Shown one piece after another: positions 10,292 to 57,575 of a stretch of 64,000 nucleotides of DNA. The number at the start of each line of letters is the position of its first letter. The stretch's first letter is position 1. The stretch is taken from NCBI GenBank assembly GCA_022571845.1, contig JACZXB010000001.1:248001-312000 (forward strand). Reading direction: 5' to 3'. Under the pieces are notes generated by a model. That model was not told the origin of the DNA and did not search any database. It saw only the letters and a program-made list of their open reading frames with translations. The stretch is from Candidatus Zixiibacteriota bacterium. Its GTDB lineage: Bacteria; Zixibacteria; MSB-5A5; GN15; FEB-12. The translations under genes were made by a program, and so were the position numbers.

Positions 10292-10340
10292 GTCATTGCG
10301 AGGAGAGCCCGACTTGTCGGGCACGATGAAGCAATCTCGA
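10292..10340. repeat. Palindromic intergenic repeat, family R1
   Basis: Outer arms GTCATTGCGAGGAG and GCAATCTCG enclose an inner hairpin GCCCGAC-TT-GTCGGGC. Similar elements are at 10561-10602 and 53918-54010, with different inner stems (TCTCGAT/ATCGGGA; TCCCGATT/AATCGGGA). This is a widespread repeat style in uncultivated bacterial genomes. Confidence 0.75.
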
Positions 10341-26362: not shown

Positions 26363-26695
26363 ATGGACGACATTTTTGAAAAAATTATCAGGCGGGAGAT
26401 TCCTTCCAAGATTTTCTATGAGGATGATGAAGTCATCGTCATTCAGGATCTCTACCCCAAAGCCCCGGTGCACCTGCTTTTGATTCCGAAGGAGAAATCC
26501 AAAAATTTCTACGAAGCCTCGCTGGAAACGCTGGCCATTTTGGGCCGGACGGTCAAAAAAGTGGCTGAGTTGCTTAAGATTGAAGATCATTTTCAGATTC
26601 AGGTCAATAACGGCTATGGACAGGAAATAGAGCATCTGCACTATCACTTTATGTCTGACCGTGGGGCGGAGAATCTTAAGTTTCTTGACGATTAG
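26363..26695 (+). CDS. HIT family nucleotide hydrolase (Hint-like)
   Basis: A 110-residue histidine-triad protein. The C-terminal active site reads HLHYHFMSD (HxHxHxx), and the N-terminal FEKIIRREIPSKIFYEDD is characteristic of Hint/PKCI-type purine nucleoside phosphoramidases. It starts at ATG 26363 and is followed by a terminator-like hairpin. Single-domain, normal length. Confidence 0.95.
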   Translation: MDDIFEKIIRREIPSKIFYEDDEVIVIQDLYPKAPVHLLLIPKEKSKNFYEASLETLAILGRTVKKVAELLKIEDHFQIQVNNGYGQEIEHLHYHFMSDRGAENLKFLDD

Positions 26696-39261: not shown

Positions 39262-39610
39262 GGCAGACCCACGTCAAGGAGGCGGGTTTTGTCCTTAGGA
39301 TGTTCACCCTTCAGCAAGCTCAGAATGACGATTATAGAAGATGGATTCCCGACTACTCCCCTTATAGGGACTAAAGCGGGAATGACACATTCAAAAGGCG
39401 TCATACTGAGCGGAGTCGAAGTATGACTTGATAAGAGATGGATTCCCGACTGCTCGGGAATGACAAAAAGTGCAAGTATGAGGAGAGAAACGGAAATGAC
39501 AATCTAGTTACTCTCTAACCCTTCGACTCCCTCTAACACTCGGGACCTTGTCCGCTCAGGGTGACTATATTAGCAATTTCCGGCAGAACCACTAAAGGGT
39601 TCTGCCCTAC
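39262..39610. repeat. Dense cluster of palindromic repeats (R2, R3, R6, 29-mer)
   Basis: The 480-bp gap 39153-39635 has no gene. It holds a degenerate R3 copy (39262-39295), R2 elements at 39301-39331, 39399-39426 and 39518-39565 (CCTTCGACT...CTCAGGGTGAC), two R6 elements GGATTCCCGACT...CGGGAATGAC (39342-39387, 39429-39464) and the 29-mer at 39582-39610 that is an exact inverted copy of 10220-10248. Confidence 0.8.
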
Positions 39611-50966: not shown

Positions 50967-51998
50967 GTGATGAAAAACGGAAGCAAACAAAAGAAACCTC
51001 ATTGTATAGCGCTCTTTTCGGGCGGGCTGGACTCGGCGCTGGCAATCCTGCTGATGCTCAAACAGGATATTGAGGTCACCGCTCTGACTTTTATGACCCA
51101 TTTTGGATGTGATCTGGGCGATAGGTCTTCTTGCGGCGGTAATCCTTATCCGGCGGCCGAGAAGTTTGGCTTTAACGTCAAGCTGATGCATTTGGGGCAG
51201 AAGTTTGTGGATATTGTAGAAAATCCCCAATATGGCCGCGGCAAAAATATGAATGTCTGTGTCGATTGCCGTATTCTTATGCTGACTGAGGCCAAAGAGT
51301 TTTTGGAACTGACCAACGCTGATTTTATCATCACCGGTGAAGTTATGGGACAGCGGCCGATGTCGCAGGTCAAAAACAAACTTAACCTGACTATAAAAAA
51401 AGCCGGCCTCAAAGGAAAACTGCTCAGGCCGCTTTCGGCAAAACTTCTGCCGCCTACCGAAGCCGAACTTAGCGGCCTGGTTGACCGGGAGCAGCTCGAA
51501 GGGATTTCCGGCCGCGGGCGACACCGCCAGCTGGAAATGGCCAAAGAGTTTGGGCTGGATAATTACCCCTCACCGGCATCGGGCTGCTTACTAACCGACC
51601 GCGGTTATTCCAACCGCCTGCGGGATTTACTGGAGCATACCGGCAAGCTGACTTTTGATGATTTGAATCTGCTCAGGCTGGGGCGGCATTTCCGACTTGA
51701 TGACCAGACCAAACTGATAATCGGGCGCAATGAAAACGAGAACAAACTTCTCGATTTTCACCGGCGCGACCATCATTATCGTATAGAAGCCTTAGACTGC
51801 GGCTCACCGGTCACTCTTCTAATTGGCAACGCCAGCGAAGAAAATCTGAACAAAGCCACCTCGCTGACAGTCCGCTATAGTTCGGCGCGTGATAACGCTT
51901 TGGTGACAGTTTCTGTCACCGGCCCGGACGTTGACAGGACTATAGCCTTTTCGCCGGGTGCGCATGAGCTGAGCGAATCGCTGCAGCCGGTACGGTGA
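50967..51998 (+). CDS. PP-loop ATPase, tRNA-thiolation-like
   Basis: A 343-residue protein with an N-terminal PP-loop SGGLDS (residues 18-23), as in ThiI, MnmA and TtcA, followed by CVDCR and a helical adaptor. The region LRLGRHFRLDDQTKLIIGR resembles the NFACT-R/DUF814 RNA-binding module seen in tRNA sulfurtransferase-like proteins. It is likely to activate tRNA uridine by adenylation for sulfur transfer; the exact modification is unknown. It is divergent from mlaE, with a 188-bp gap that shows no other gene. Confidence 0.8.
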   Translation: MMKNGSKQKKPHCIALFSGGLDSALAILLMLKQDIEVTALTFMTHFGCDLGDRSSCGGNPYPAAEKFGFNVKLMHLGQKFVDIVENPQYGRGKNMNVCVDCRILMLTEAKEFLELTNADFIITGEVMGQRPMSQVKNKLNLTIKKAGLKGKLLRPLSAKLLPPTEAELSGLVDREQLEGISGRGRHRQLEMAKEFGLDNYPSPASGCLLTDRGYSNRLRDLLEHTGKLTFDDLNLLRLGRHFRLDDQTKLIIGRNENENKLLDFHRRDHHYRIEALDCGSPVTLLIGNASEENLNKATSLTVRYSSARDNALVTVSVTGPDVDRTIAFSPGAHELSESLQPVR

Positions 51999-52915: not shown

Positions 52916-52931
52916 AAAGCTTTAAAATAGT

Positions 52932-52962
52932 GAAAGGTCCCGATTAAAAATCAGGACCTTTC
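52932..52962. terminator. Strong hairpin, possible bidirectional terminator
   Basis: GAAAGGTCC-(C)-GATT-AAA-AATC-(A)-GGACCTTTC, a near-perfect 13-bp stem. On the minus strand it is followed by ACTATTTTAAA, on the plus strand by TTTCTCC. It lies at the downstream end of the structured block 52963-53260 on the minus strand. Confidence 0.6.
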
Positions 52963-52969
52963 TTTCTCC

Positions 52970-53188
52970 TCACCATGCCGGGACTAATCCCAGCAATTTC
53001 ACCGCCATAAAATTGCTGTAATCTCCGAGCTTTAAGTCGGCAAACAGCAACCCGCTCACGCGAGCTTGTAAAAACATCTTTACAAACGCCAACTCTCGGT
53101 TCGGCCTCCCGGCTTCCTCGCAAAGTCGTTTAGTATCAAATTTTATGCCAAGACTGCTCTGAAAAAAGTGTTGTTGATAGACAACGAG
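52970..53188 (-). other. Start-less open frame of 72 codons, gene remnant or RNA by-product
   Basis: Read on the minus strand from 53188 to the TGA at 52970, this frame gives a protein-like sequence with stretches KRLCEEAGRPNRELAFVKMF and ADLKLGDYSNFMAVKLLGLV. No ATG, GTG or TTG occurs before codon 33. A second frame of about 41 codons, open from 53268 to a TAA at 53143 and also with no start until its internal ATG, overlaps it at a run of six T. The two frames could be one gene broken by a one-base slip, or both could be by-products of a conserved RNA. Confidence 0.3.
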
Positions 53189-53267
53189 TTAAGACGCATT
53201 GCGACAGGATTGCTGGCGTTAAAAGCGCAGAGTTTGATGGCTTGCGGCGCATTTGCTGCCTGTTTGT

Positions 53268-53360
53268 CATCCTTCGACTCCGCTCAGGATGACAGGATGA
53301 ACCACTCAGGATGACAGGATGAGCCGCTCAGGATAACAGGATGAACCGCTCAGGATCACG
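53268..53360. repeat. Tandem 22-bp repeats derived from R2
   Basis: After CATCCTTCGACT the unit CCGCTCAGGATGACAGGATG plus two bases repeats about 3.7 times (53280-53301, 53302-53323, 53324-53345, 53346-53360) with single-base differences. It is a minisatellite grown from the end of an R2 element. Confidence 0.85.
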
Positions 53361-54263: not shown

Positions 54264-55091
54264 TTATTTCAAGACCATCATCTTATTCGTCTTTACGAAC
54301 TTATCATTGTCCGCAATCAGACGATAAAAATAGACACCACTTGAATAACTACTGGCTTCCCAGGTGACCGTGTGGTTACCTGCATCCATGTTCTCATCGA
54401 CCAGTGTTTCCACTTCCTGTCCCAGGACATTGTAGATAATAAGTGAAACACGACCCGCTGTCGGCAACGCGAAAGAAATTTCGGTTGTCGGGTTAAACGG
54501 GTTTGGATAGTTCTGGTCAAGCGCAAAAACTGTCGGAAGAAGACTTTCAATAGGATCGCTGCCTACTACGACATCGGCAAAGGCCGGGTACTCAGCACGA
54601 ATACCGGCAATACTACCGTCAACATTGTAGTCATGATACACAAACATCAGTTTGTGATATGGATCAGTCATCTCTATTGCCTCGATGGTTACTTCGGTTA
54701 CCGAAGGATCATCAATCTCGAACACAAGATTTGCCACAACACCGCTGCCTGCTTCCAGGTCGGCTTTTGCCCTATAAGACATCTGAGGCATAGCACCGAT
54801 AATAACGGTATTGTTTTCATTGTCTATGTTCGTGATTTTGAAGTCAAAATATTCGATACGCGTATCGGTAAAATCGACTTCCTTAAGAGTCACACCTTCC
54901 GAAAATTTGAGCGGGATATCCAGCGCCACCAAGTTGTCCAGATTGGAAATTTCCAACGGTACAACAATAATGGTTGCACTTTTTGCTATGGCCTTGCCTA
55001 CACCAAACTGGTGGTATTCAGCCGCAAAAAGAGTGGACGGCACCGCTAGCAAAGCCATGACTACTGTTACAACAAGTAAGCGTTTAATCAA
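54264..55091 (-). CDS. Secreted cohesin-like protein with C-terminal sorting domain
   Basis: A 275-residue exported protein. A signal peptide spans about residues 1-23. Residues about 30-140 look like a cohesin-type beta sandwich (IIVVPLEISNLDNLVALDIPLKF style and GSGVVANLVFEIDD). The C-terminal part has LDQNYPNPFNPTTEISFALP, YNVLGQEVETLVD and GVYFYRLIA, the FlgD-like/type IX-type sorting domain common in FCB bacteria. Start TTG 55091 has a strong AGGAGGTG upstream. Possible partner of the dockerin-like modules of the 36876-39152 protein; this is inference. Confidence 0.85.
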   Translation of the reverse strand: MIKRLLVVTVVMALLAVPSTLFAAEYHQFGVGKAIAKSATIIVVPLEISNLDNLVALDIPLKFSEGVTLKEVDFTDTRIEYFDFKITNIDNENNTVIIGAMPQMSYRAKADLEAGSGVVANLVFEIDDPSVTEVTIEAIEMTDPYHKLMFVYHDYNVDGSIAGIRAEYPAFADVVVGSDPIESLLPTVFALDQNYPNPFNPTTEISFALPTAGRVSLIIYNVLGQEVETLVDENMDAGNHTVTWEASSYSSGVYFYRLIADNDKFVKTNKMMVLK

Positions 55092-55601: not shown

Positions 55602-57575
55602 GTGGCAGATAACGGACCTAATAAGCAGACTTTTATACCAGCAGTTCCGGCCAATACTACTATGGCCGAAGTTACCTGGAGAGCTATAATTCTCGGTGCG
55701 ATAATCTCAGTAGTTTTTGGAATTGCCAACGCCTATATGGGGCTGAAATTTGGAATGACAGTATCATCTTCAATTCCGGCAGCTGTAATCTCAATGGCGG
55801 TTCTCAGGTTGATGATGAAAAAAGCTACCATCCTGGAAAACAATATCGTCCAGACTGTGGGTTCTGCCGGGGAATCATTAGCGGCCGGAATCATTTTTAC
55901 AGTACCGGCATTTTTCATCTGGTCGGCCAATCAGGAATTGGCAGATGCCGGATATTTTCACGAAATATCCAAGACTCAAATTTTCTGGCTGTCAATGCTG
56001 GGCGGTTCGCTGGGTATCCTGCTAATGATACCACTTCGTAAATATCTTGTTGAAAAAGAACACGGCAATCTACGCTTTCCCGAAGGCACCGCCTGCGCCG
56101 AGATAATAGTCGCCGGTGACAAAGGCGGTAATAAGGCCAAGCTGGTCTTTACCGGCATCGGGCTGGGCGCTCTTTACAAAATTGGTTATAACTTGCTCAA
56201 AGGCTGGTCGGAATCTGTCAACTATGACTTTCAGAAATTTCTCAAAGGCGGCACAGTCGGCATAGATGCAACACCTGCTCTTTTGGGTGTCGGCTATATT
56301 ATCGGTCCGAGAATTGCCGCACTAATGTTGAGTGGCGCGGTGCTTGGTTACCTGGGTATCGCACCGCTTCTGGCTTATATTGGTGAACAGATTCCAGGCA
56401 TTATTATTGCACCCGGAAAAATGCCTTTAAGTGATATGGACCCCGGAGAACTGAGAAACTCCTATATCAAGTATCTTGGTGTGGGAGCAGTTTCATTGGG
56501 GGGCTTTGTCTCACTTCTAAAATCTTCACCTGTCATCATTACATCTCTTAAAACAGGTTTTAGTCAATTGATGGGCAAGAAAGTTCAAACTGAAGATACT
56601 CCCCGGACCGACCGCGACCTGCCTATGAAGTGGGTACTCCTGGGAATAGTTCTGGTGATAATAGGAATCTGGATGTTGCCGGGTACAAATCTCAATTTAC
56701 TGGGCACTCTGCTGGCCGTAATTTTCGGGTTTTTCTTTGTAGTAGTTGCTGCCAGAATTGTGGGAATTGTCGGTTCATCTTCGTCACCTGTTTCTGGAAT
56801 GACCATTGCAACACTGCTGGTGACTTGCCTGATTCTACTCTATTTTGGAGTCGATGGTACGGCCGGAATGGTCACCGCTATGTCAGTCGGCACGGTTGTC
56901 TGTATTGCAGTTTGTATGTCCGGTGACATAGCCCAGGATTTGAAAACAGGCTATCTTCTTGGGGCGACGCCAAGAAAACAGCAATTAACAGAATTTATAG
57001 GACTGCTCTTCCCGGCCATGGCTATGGGCTTTACACTTTATTTCTTAAACGATGCTTTTGGATTTGTAGAAGGCGCTACTGCCCGCAAACCGCTGCTTGC
57101 TCCGCAGGCAAATATTATGGCGACAATTGTTCAGGGAGTAATGAATGCTAACCTTCCCTGGACACCTATTTTGGTTGGCGGTATGATTGCAGTCGGAGTT
57201 GAGCTATTGGGAGTTTCTTCGCTGCCTTTTGCTATAGGTTTGTATCTGCCGCTGTCACTCTCAACACCAATAATGGCTGGCGCCCTGATTGCTTTCATAG
57301 TCAGGAAAGTTTCATCTGATCAAGAGTATAATCAAAGGAATTTGCAAGGTGTCTTGTTTGCATCGGGGATGGTGGCTGGTGATGCGCTGATCGGAGTACT
57401 GGTTGCGTTTATGATTGGAAGCTGGGCAGGATACGCGGGATACTATGACAGTTACGAAGGTATGATGAATAGTGTTACCGGTCCCTTTGGTCCCTGGCTG
57501 GCGCTGATTCTATTCGGCGGGCTGGCCATCTTCATGTACAGGATGGCTACGAAAGGATTTGGCAGAAACGAATAA
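55602..57575 (+). CDS. OPT family oligopeptide transporter
   Basis: A 657-residue inner-membrane transporter of the oligopeptide transporter family with about 14-16 helices. Start GTG 55602 is backed by a strong AGGAGGT. The N-terminus EVTWRAIILGAIISVVFGIANAYMGLKFG and central KEHGNLRFPEGTACAEII motifs are typical. OPT proteins take up peptides or metal-chelate complexes by proton symport. It fits with the peptidases of the window as a peptide importer. Confidence 0.94.
   Translation: MADNGPNKQTFIPAVPANTTMAEVTWRAIILGAIISVVFGIANAYMGLKFGMTVSSSIPAAVISMAVLRLMMKKATILENNIVQTVGSAGESLAAGIIFTVPAFFIWSANQELADAGYFHEISKTQIFWLSMLGGSLGILLMIPLRKYLVEKEHGNLRFPEGTACAEIIVAGDKGGNKAKLVFTGIGLGALYKIGYNLLKGWSESVNYDFQKFLKGGTVGIDATPALLGVGYIIGPRIAALMLSGAVLGYLGIAPLLAYIGEQIPGIIIAPGKMPLSDMDPGELRNSYIKYLGVGAVSLGGFVSLLKSSPVIITSLKTGFSQLMGKKVQTEDTPRTDRDLPMKWVLLGIVLVIIGIWMLPGTNLNLLGTLLAVIFGFFFVVVAARIVGIVGSSSSPVSGMTIATLLVTCLILLYFGVDGTAGMVTAMSVGTVVCIAVCMSGDIAQDLKTGYLLGATPRKQQLTEFIGLLFPAMAMGFTLYFLNDAFGFVEGATARKPLLAPQANIMATIVQGVMNANLPWTPILVGGMIAVGVELLGVSSLPFAIGLYLPLSLSTPIMAGALIAFIVRKVSSDQEYNQRNLQGVLFASGMVAGDALIGVLVAFMIGSWAGYAGYYDSYEGMMNSVTGPFGPWLALILFGGLAIFMYRMATKGFGRNE

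Follow-up and report, generated by a model that had tools for sequence, protein, structure and literature searches.

A probable small-RNA gene with sigma-54-type control elements in Candidatus Zixiibacteriota

The locus and its surroundings

The window, a 64,000-nucleotide stretch of a Candidatus Zixiibacteriota genome, contains a 329-bp block (positions 52932–53260) situated inside a 1-kb spacer. The two halves of this block are unlike. The 3′ half of the minus strand corresponds to an RNA of ~ 200 nt (52926–53125), and the 5′ half (53130–53260) is promoter DNA. BLAST and model searches locate the block only once in its own genome, and by BLAST the full-length block is found only in two congeners, with 83–86% identity. 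Conservation in the congener alignment stops near the block edges and just past the terminal stem. The boundaries proposed in the original prediction agree well with this organization, as a terminator stem ends at 52932 and the distal of two putative enhancer boxes is located just downstream of 53260.

In the family, the RNA is usually embedded in the order OPT transporter, T9SS-sorted secreted protein, RNA and convergent ThiI-like gene. In the window, the transporter gene occupies 55602–57575, the T9SS-sorted protein gene 54264–55091, and the convergent gene, which encodes a ThiI/MnmA-like protein with an NFACT-R_2 RNA-binding domain and is conserved across the order, 50967–51998. The T9SS-protein gene is usually found on the same strand as the RNA and ~ 200 nt upstream, and in about 20 genomes the convergent downstream gene ends 3–45 nt past the terminator. 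The arrangement in the window is modified, as the RNA has a SCO4226-like gene and a PLAT-domain gene inserted at its two sides; both here and in B77T1B8, a near-identical relative, an extra opposite-strand gene is located between the RNA and the upstream gene.

Several repeats occur around the locus. A tandem array at 53280–53356, immediately upstream of the enhancer boxes, comprises 3.5 copies of a 22-bp unit, CCGCTCAGGATGACAGGATGAA, and single-unit relatives, TCATCCTGAGCGGA, are located at 39401, 39551, 43383, 52793 and 53894. A dispersed hairpin element around GGCGGGTTTCGACCTACTC is found at 26690, 52747 and 54096, so placed that two copies flank the RNA locus; it looks like a short intergenic repeat. 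Another dispersed repeat, GTCATTGCGAGGAG, is present at 10292, 52708 and 53919, the last copy being followed by a short inverted repeat.

Fold, homologues and covariation

The original prediction had noted serial hairpins on the minus strand, and structure beyond chance is borne out there for the whole block (z of −3.2 against shuffles). The structure resides in the RNA half (52929–53128 as folded), for which the fold z is −6.14 and none of 200 shuffles is as good, whereas the other half, 53130–53260, has a fold z of 0.02 and is not unusual. The description of the whole block as structured thus applies to the minus-strand 3′ half, and the 5′ 130 bp are promoter and enhancer DNA rather than RNA. 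On the plus strand, too, the whole block folds beyond its shuffles, with an equal z of −3.2, and the strand is therefore not given by folding energy alone.

The predicted transcript starts at about 53124 and ends at the terminator tail. Its outer stem, P1, is probably formed by GCCGGGA (53107–53113) and TCCCGGC (52977–52983), as judged from the minimum-energy fold and from the congeners. The covariance model places the P1 5′ arm of the window RNA elsewhere, nearer 53055, because the variable arm inside P1 (P2, 53025–53105) is greatly enlarged in the window genus. P2 differs in length and sequence between genera, and in the window genus it contains several hairpins, for example at 53065–53086. 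The RNA is ~ 200 nt long in the window, compared with ~ 130–160 nt in most relatives. The nine-pair stem that had been reported at about 52991–53018 is real (52992–53017) and corresponds to a conserved hairpin, P3. Its loop, TGGCGGT (53001–53007; UGGCGGU in the RNA), is invariant in alignments of 28 and 21 sequences. Between P1 and the terminator lies a conserved single-stranded linker, TGGTGAGGAGAAAG (52963–52976), in which GGTGAGGA is invariant in all 21 aligned sequences; in the common plan of the homologues the linker reads TGGTGAGGAGAGA, with the invariant RNA form GUGAGGAG. The strong terminal stem of the original prediction (52932–52962) was recovered by the terminator scan and by folding as a 14-pair intrinsic terminator, GAAAGGTCCTGATTTTTAATCGGGACCTTTC, and it is the conserved element P4. 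At six homologous loci (L021, L022, L024, L027, L031 and L041) the P2 loop carries CCCGCAAC/CCGCAAC, which could pair with the GCGG of the P3 loop. Such a possible P2 loop CCCGC/P3 loop GCGG kissing contact was noted by eye in several genera and is not universal.

Searching related genomes with nucleotide and covariance models, a check proposed along with the original prediction, yielded homologues across the family. A sequence profile built from the window and two congeners (R1) detected many diverged homologues, which share a common plan when placed side by side. A covariance model of 21 diverged sequences, from which the window genus was left out (R2), recovers the window RNA at an E value of about 1e-11 to 1e-12 (match 52929–53055) and finds one copy each in 38 of 54 family genomes. 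A second covariance model of 39 sequences (R3) matches the same interval at an E value of 2e-18 and extends the distribution to 43 of the 54 genomes and, at E < 1e-5, to three genomes from a different family within the order; beyond these genomes it gives weak scores only. About 11 of the 54 genomes have no R3 match. In some of them the locus falls on a broken contig, and others, G010 and G015 among them, possess the syntenic spacer without a recognisable copy. With the convergent gene as a landmark, diverged copies missed by R2 were found at the same locus in other families of the order. These copies have the promoter motif, a GGAGAG-like linker and a terminator, and several also have the GGCGGT hairpin; some genomes searched by this landmark have no copy there. 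In a pattern scan of named genomes, all model-confirmed matches belonged to Zixiibacteriota or to entries labelled only as FCB group or bacterium. Pattern matches in Succinivibrio, Phocaeicola, Stenotrophomonas and others had model scores at chance, as did a match on a second contig of isolate B21T1B10.

The helices vary in a compensatory manner. RNAalifold on three sequences gave no two-sided changes, there being too little variation. In a plain MAFFT alignment of the homologues, two-sided change is seen at 19 of 22 modelled pairs and 89.5% of cells are paired; when the partners were slid by 1–3 columns as a control, 32–56% of cells remained paired. On the model alignment, which leans to structure, the corresponding values are 21 of 22 pairs and 95.3%. 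Covariation occurs at all six modelled pairs of P1 across the family and two-sided change at all seven of P3, and in P4 99% of cells are paired with two-sided change at eight of nine pairs. A model-free swap test that used anchors only gave 17.2 for P1 arms with their own partners and 10.8 ± 0.6 with swapped partners (0 of 2000), and 13.9 compared with 10.1 for P3 (0 of 1000). G-U cells outnumber A-C cells by 89 to 5 on the model alignment and by 54 to 8 on the MAFFT alignment, an excess that identifies the minus-strand transcript as the molecule that folds. Together, these data strongly support a structured non-coding RNA with helices backed by compensatory change.

Promoter and upstream boxes

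Upstream of the RNA, the minus strand contains a −24/−12 element of the sigma-54 type, TTGGCATAAAATTTGA (53136–53151). Its motif, GGCAY-N5-TTG, precedes the RNA in all 39 promoters inspected, 11 of which came from models or scans that did not include the promoter motif, and its spacing is that of sigma-54 −24/−12 elements. Two TGCG boxes, both putative activator sites, lie further upstream on the minus strand. Counted from the leading G of the −24 element, the distal box, aaaTGCGcc (53246–53254), is positioned at −105 and the proximal box, ctcTGCGct (53224–53232), at −83, 22 bp from the distal one. Most relatives have paired boxes, mostly TTCTGCG-like, at about −94 and −116 and likewise 22 bp apart; in the window genus the pair is 11 bp, or one helical turn, closer to the promoter and the 22-bp spacing is kept. 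Sigma-54 activator sites are located ~ 70–150 bp upstream (PMC3844500), and the putative boxes described here fall within this range. An inverted repeat, GTTGTCTATCAACAAC (53170–53185, minus strand), separates the boxes from the promoter, and a similar GTTGT..ACAAC is present in a minority of relatives. A search of the 54 genomes for the composite of two boxes and promoter returned this locus in most genomes that match, with about a dozen other matches that are scattered and patternless.

The promoter is presumably sigma-54 dependent and would be served by an enhancer-binding activator. The sigma factor itself, RpoN, is encoded in the own genome and in 50 of the 54, among them every one of the 29 of high quality. 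The −12 position deviates from the sigma-54 consensus, being A or T rather than C in 38 of 39 promoters, and this, together with a stretch, TTTGWTACTAT, that vaguely resembles an extended −10, might be taken to suggest a promoter of a different kind, such as an extended −10 with a bound activator. Such a reading seems distinctly improbable, given that GGCA and TTG are invariant at the exact sigma-54 spacing, that A occupies the second −10 position in just 17 of 39 promoters, and that the boxes stand at a typical enhancer distance. A consensus scan found no sigma-70-like promoter, and RpoN is universal in the high-quality genomes. The enterobacterial promoters of pspA and pspG share the deviation; in E. 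coli and Salmonella these confirmed sigma-54 promoters read TTGT, likewise without C at −12 (PMC4591121, PMC3844500).

Identity and possible mode of action of the RNA

The sequence comparisons establish a conserved structured RNA together with its strand, its terminator, the conservation of promoter and boxes, its single copy and its synteny. The block as a whole very likely represents a complete minus-strand small-RNA gene with its own sigma-54-type control and terminator, the product of which would act in trans and independently of Hfq. Among the three options offered by the original prediction, a new ncRNA, a multi-copy element or a broken gene, the first is strongly supported: about 43 of the 54 family genomes possess a homologue, every helix shows compensatory change, and the RNA has a terminator and a conserved promoter.

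For a multi-copy element, decayed gene or chance spacer the probability is negligible. The surrounding spacer does contain repeats, namely the tandem array at 53280–53356 and the dispersed hairpins, yet the genome has only one copy of the block itself, and the helices show compensatory changes. No conserved frame supports a broken gene. The ‘all-frame openness’ that had been considered atypical is ordinary: two minus-strand frames are open over at least 40 codons, a number reached in 67% of dinucleotide shuffles, for which the mean is 1.8; the plus strand of the block has three such frames. The three reported open frames do exist mechanically, but they are broken by indels between relatives. 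B77T1B8 (L124) differs by 5 mismatches plus indels over 369 columns, including two separate 1-nt indels that lie within the frames and shift them, and the congeners at 83–86% identity add further 1–2 nt indels. The frames are therefore not maintained, and a coding gene was rejected. A role in cis is also unlikely. Riboswitches commonly consist of a compact junction with a terminator behind it, and the T9SS-protein gene upstream mostly shares the strand of the RNA, features that would suit a leader (riboswitch or attenuator) or the structured 3′ UTR of a neighbouring gene. Nevertheless, in most genomes the next downstream gene is convergent rather than a sense gene, which leaves no target in cis; the RNA is preceded by a conserved promoter and boxes of its own, an opposite-strand gene separates it from the upstream gene in the window and B77T1B8, and the G-U bias excludes structure on the other strand. 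Both forms are thus highly improbable.

The RNA lacks a counterpart among catalogued families. The window and 20 homologous loci have no match at gathering score among the 4227 families of Rfam 15, and permissive thresholds return sub-threshold matches only, which in the homologues fall on the terminator hairpin. GlmY/Z, Qrr, CrcZ, 6S and riboswitch identities were rejected for want of a match to the Rfam 15 covariance models, and tmRNA and RNase P RNA were rejected as both genes are located on other contigs of the same genome. Among the papers searched, no relevant one links Zixibacteria with small or noncoding RNA, or with sigma-54.

In how it would work, the RNA resembles the sigma-54-dependent GlmY/GlmZ and Qrr RNAs of gammaproteobacteria, which are also small intergenic RNAs with their own −24/−12 promoter, upstream activator sites and an intrinsic terminator. 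The glmY and glmZ promoters are among the listed sigma-54 sites in Salmonella (PMC3844500), and PMC10162802 deals with Qrr1 transcription by a pair of enhancer-binding proteins. The RNA described here is not a member of these families, as it has no Rfam match and differs in fold and motifs. Qrr action in Vibrio depends on Hfq. In contrast to the Qrr/GlmZ type, the host family is devoid of detectable Hfq, with no match in 54 of 54 genomes and positive results for the control genomes. A second comparison is with CrcZ/CrcY and CsrB/RsmZ, regulatory RNAs that sequester proteins, CrcZ being controlled by the sigma-54 activator CbrB. The RNA would be similar to these if it binds a protein, but it has one linker and one loop in place of repeated CA-rich (judged by eye) or GGA motifs. 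It is also akin to the candidate structured RNAs reported from comparative genomics by Weinberg and colleagues (PMC2864571, PMC11109978), for which the evidence is likewise compensatory change in intergenic sequence from uncultured bacteria, and is set apart by the lack of a match among the Rfam 15 families.

The organization of the locus suggests the following course of events. An activator of the sigma-54 enhancer-binding type would bind the two TGCG boxes ~ 90–120 bp upstream and open sigma-54 polymerase at the TTGGCAY-N5-TTG promoter. The ~ 200-nt RNA would be made from about 53124, end at the intrinsic terminator at 52932–52962, and fold into a junction, with P1 around the variable P2 and the conserved P3, followed by the single-stranded linker and the terminator. 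It would then presumably act in trans without Hfq, the likeliest means being base pairing by the exposed P3 loop UGGCGGU, the linker GUGAGGAG or both; alternatively, the loop or linker may be offered to a protein. No recurring complement was found in the start regions of neighbouring genes.

Within the small-RNA interpretation, pairing is somewhat favoured over protein binding. An RNA that mainly binds protein, for instance by sequestering CsrA via the unpaired GAGGAG linker rather than pairing with mRNA, would accord with the presence of CsrA in 50 of 54 genomes and of Hfq in none, and with the GGAGAG-like purine stretch before the terminator, which is kept even in the diverged copies from other families of the order. 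GGA is not enriched in the RNAs, at 3.1 per RNA compared with 2.7 in shuffles, while multiple sites are the rule in known CsrA sponges, and a CsrB-type CsrA sponge was rejected on this ground. Protein binding of this kind would also leave the invariant P3 loop, TGGCGGT, which has no GGA, unexplained, and it is considered unlikely, although the linker may contain a single CsrA site. Pairing in trans remains the preferred reading.

Few small RNAs have been assigned in uncultured phyla, and none was found described for Zixiibacteriota in the literature searched. The RNA is absent from catalogues of known RNAs, and its covariance model is a possible basis for a new Rfam family. It poses the question of how a conserved trans-acting RNA works where Hfq is not found but CsrA is present. 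The RNA might represent an ancient Hfq-independent regulatory class, with a dedicated sigma-54 activator that has this RNA as its main or only output throughout a whole order of uncultured bacteria, a possibility that for now is more doubtful than probable. In its favour, the composite of boxes and promoter is practically confined to this locus in the 54 genomes searched, so that one signal pathway may run through one RNA. The complete anatomy, comprising the boxes, the −24/−12 promoter, the fold, the invariant loop and linker, the terminator and the synteny, makes the RNA findable by model, trackable in metatranscriptomes and testable.
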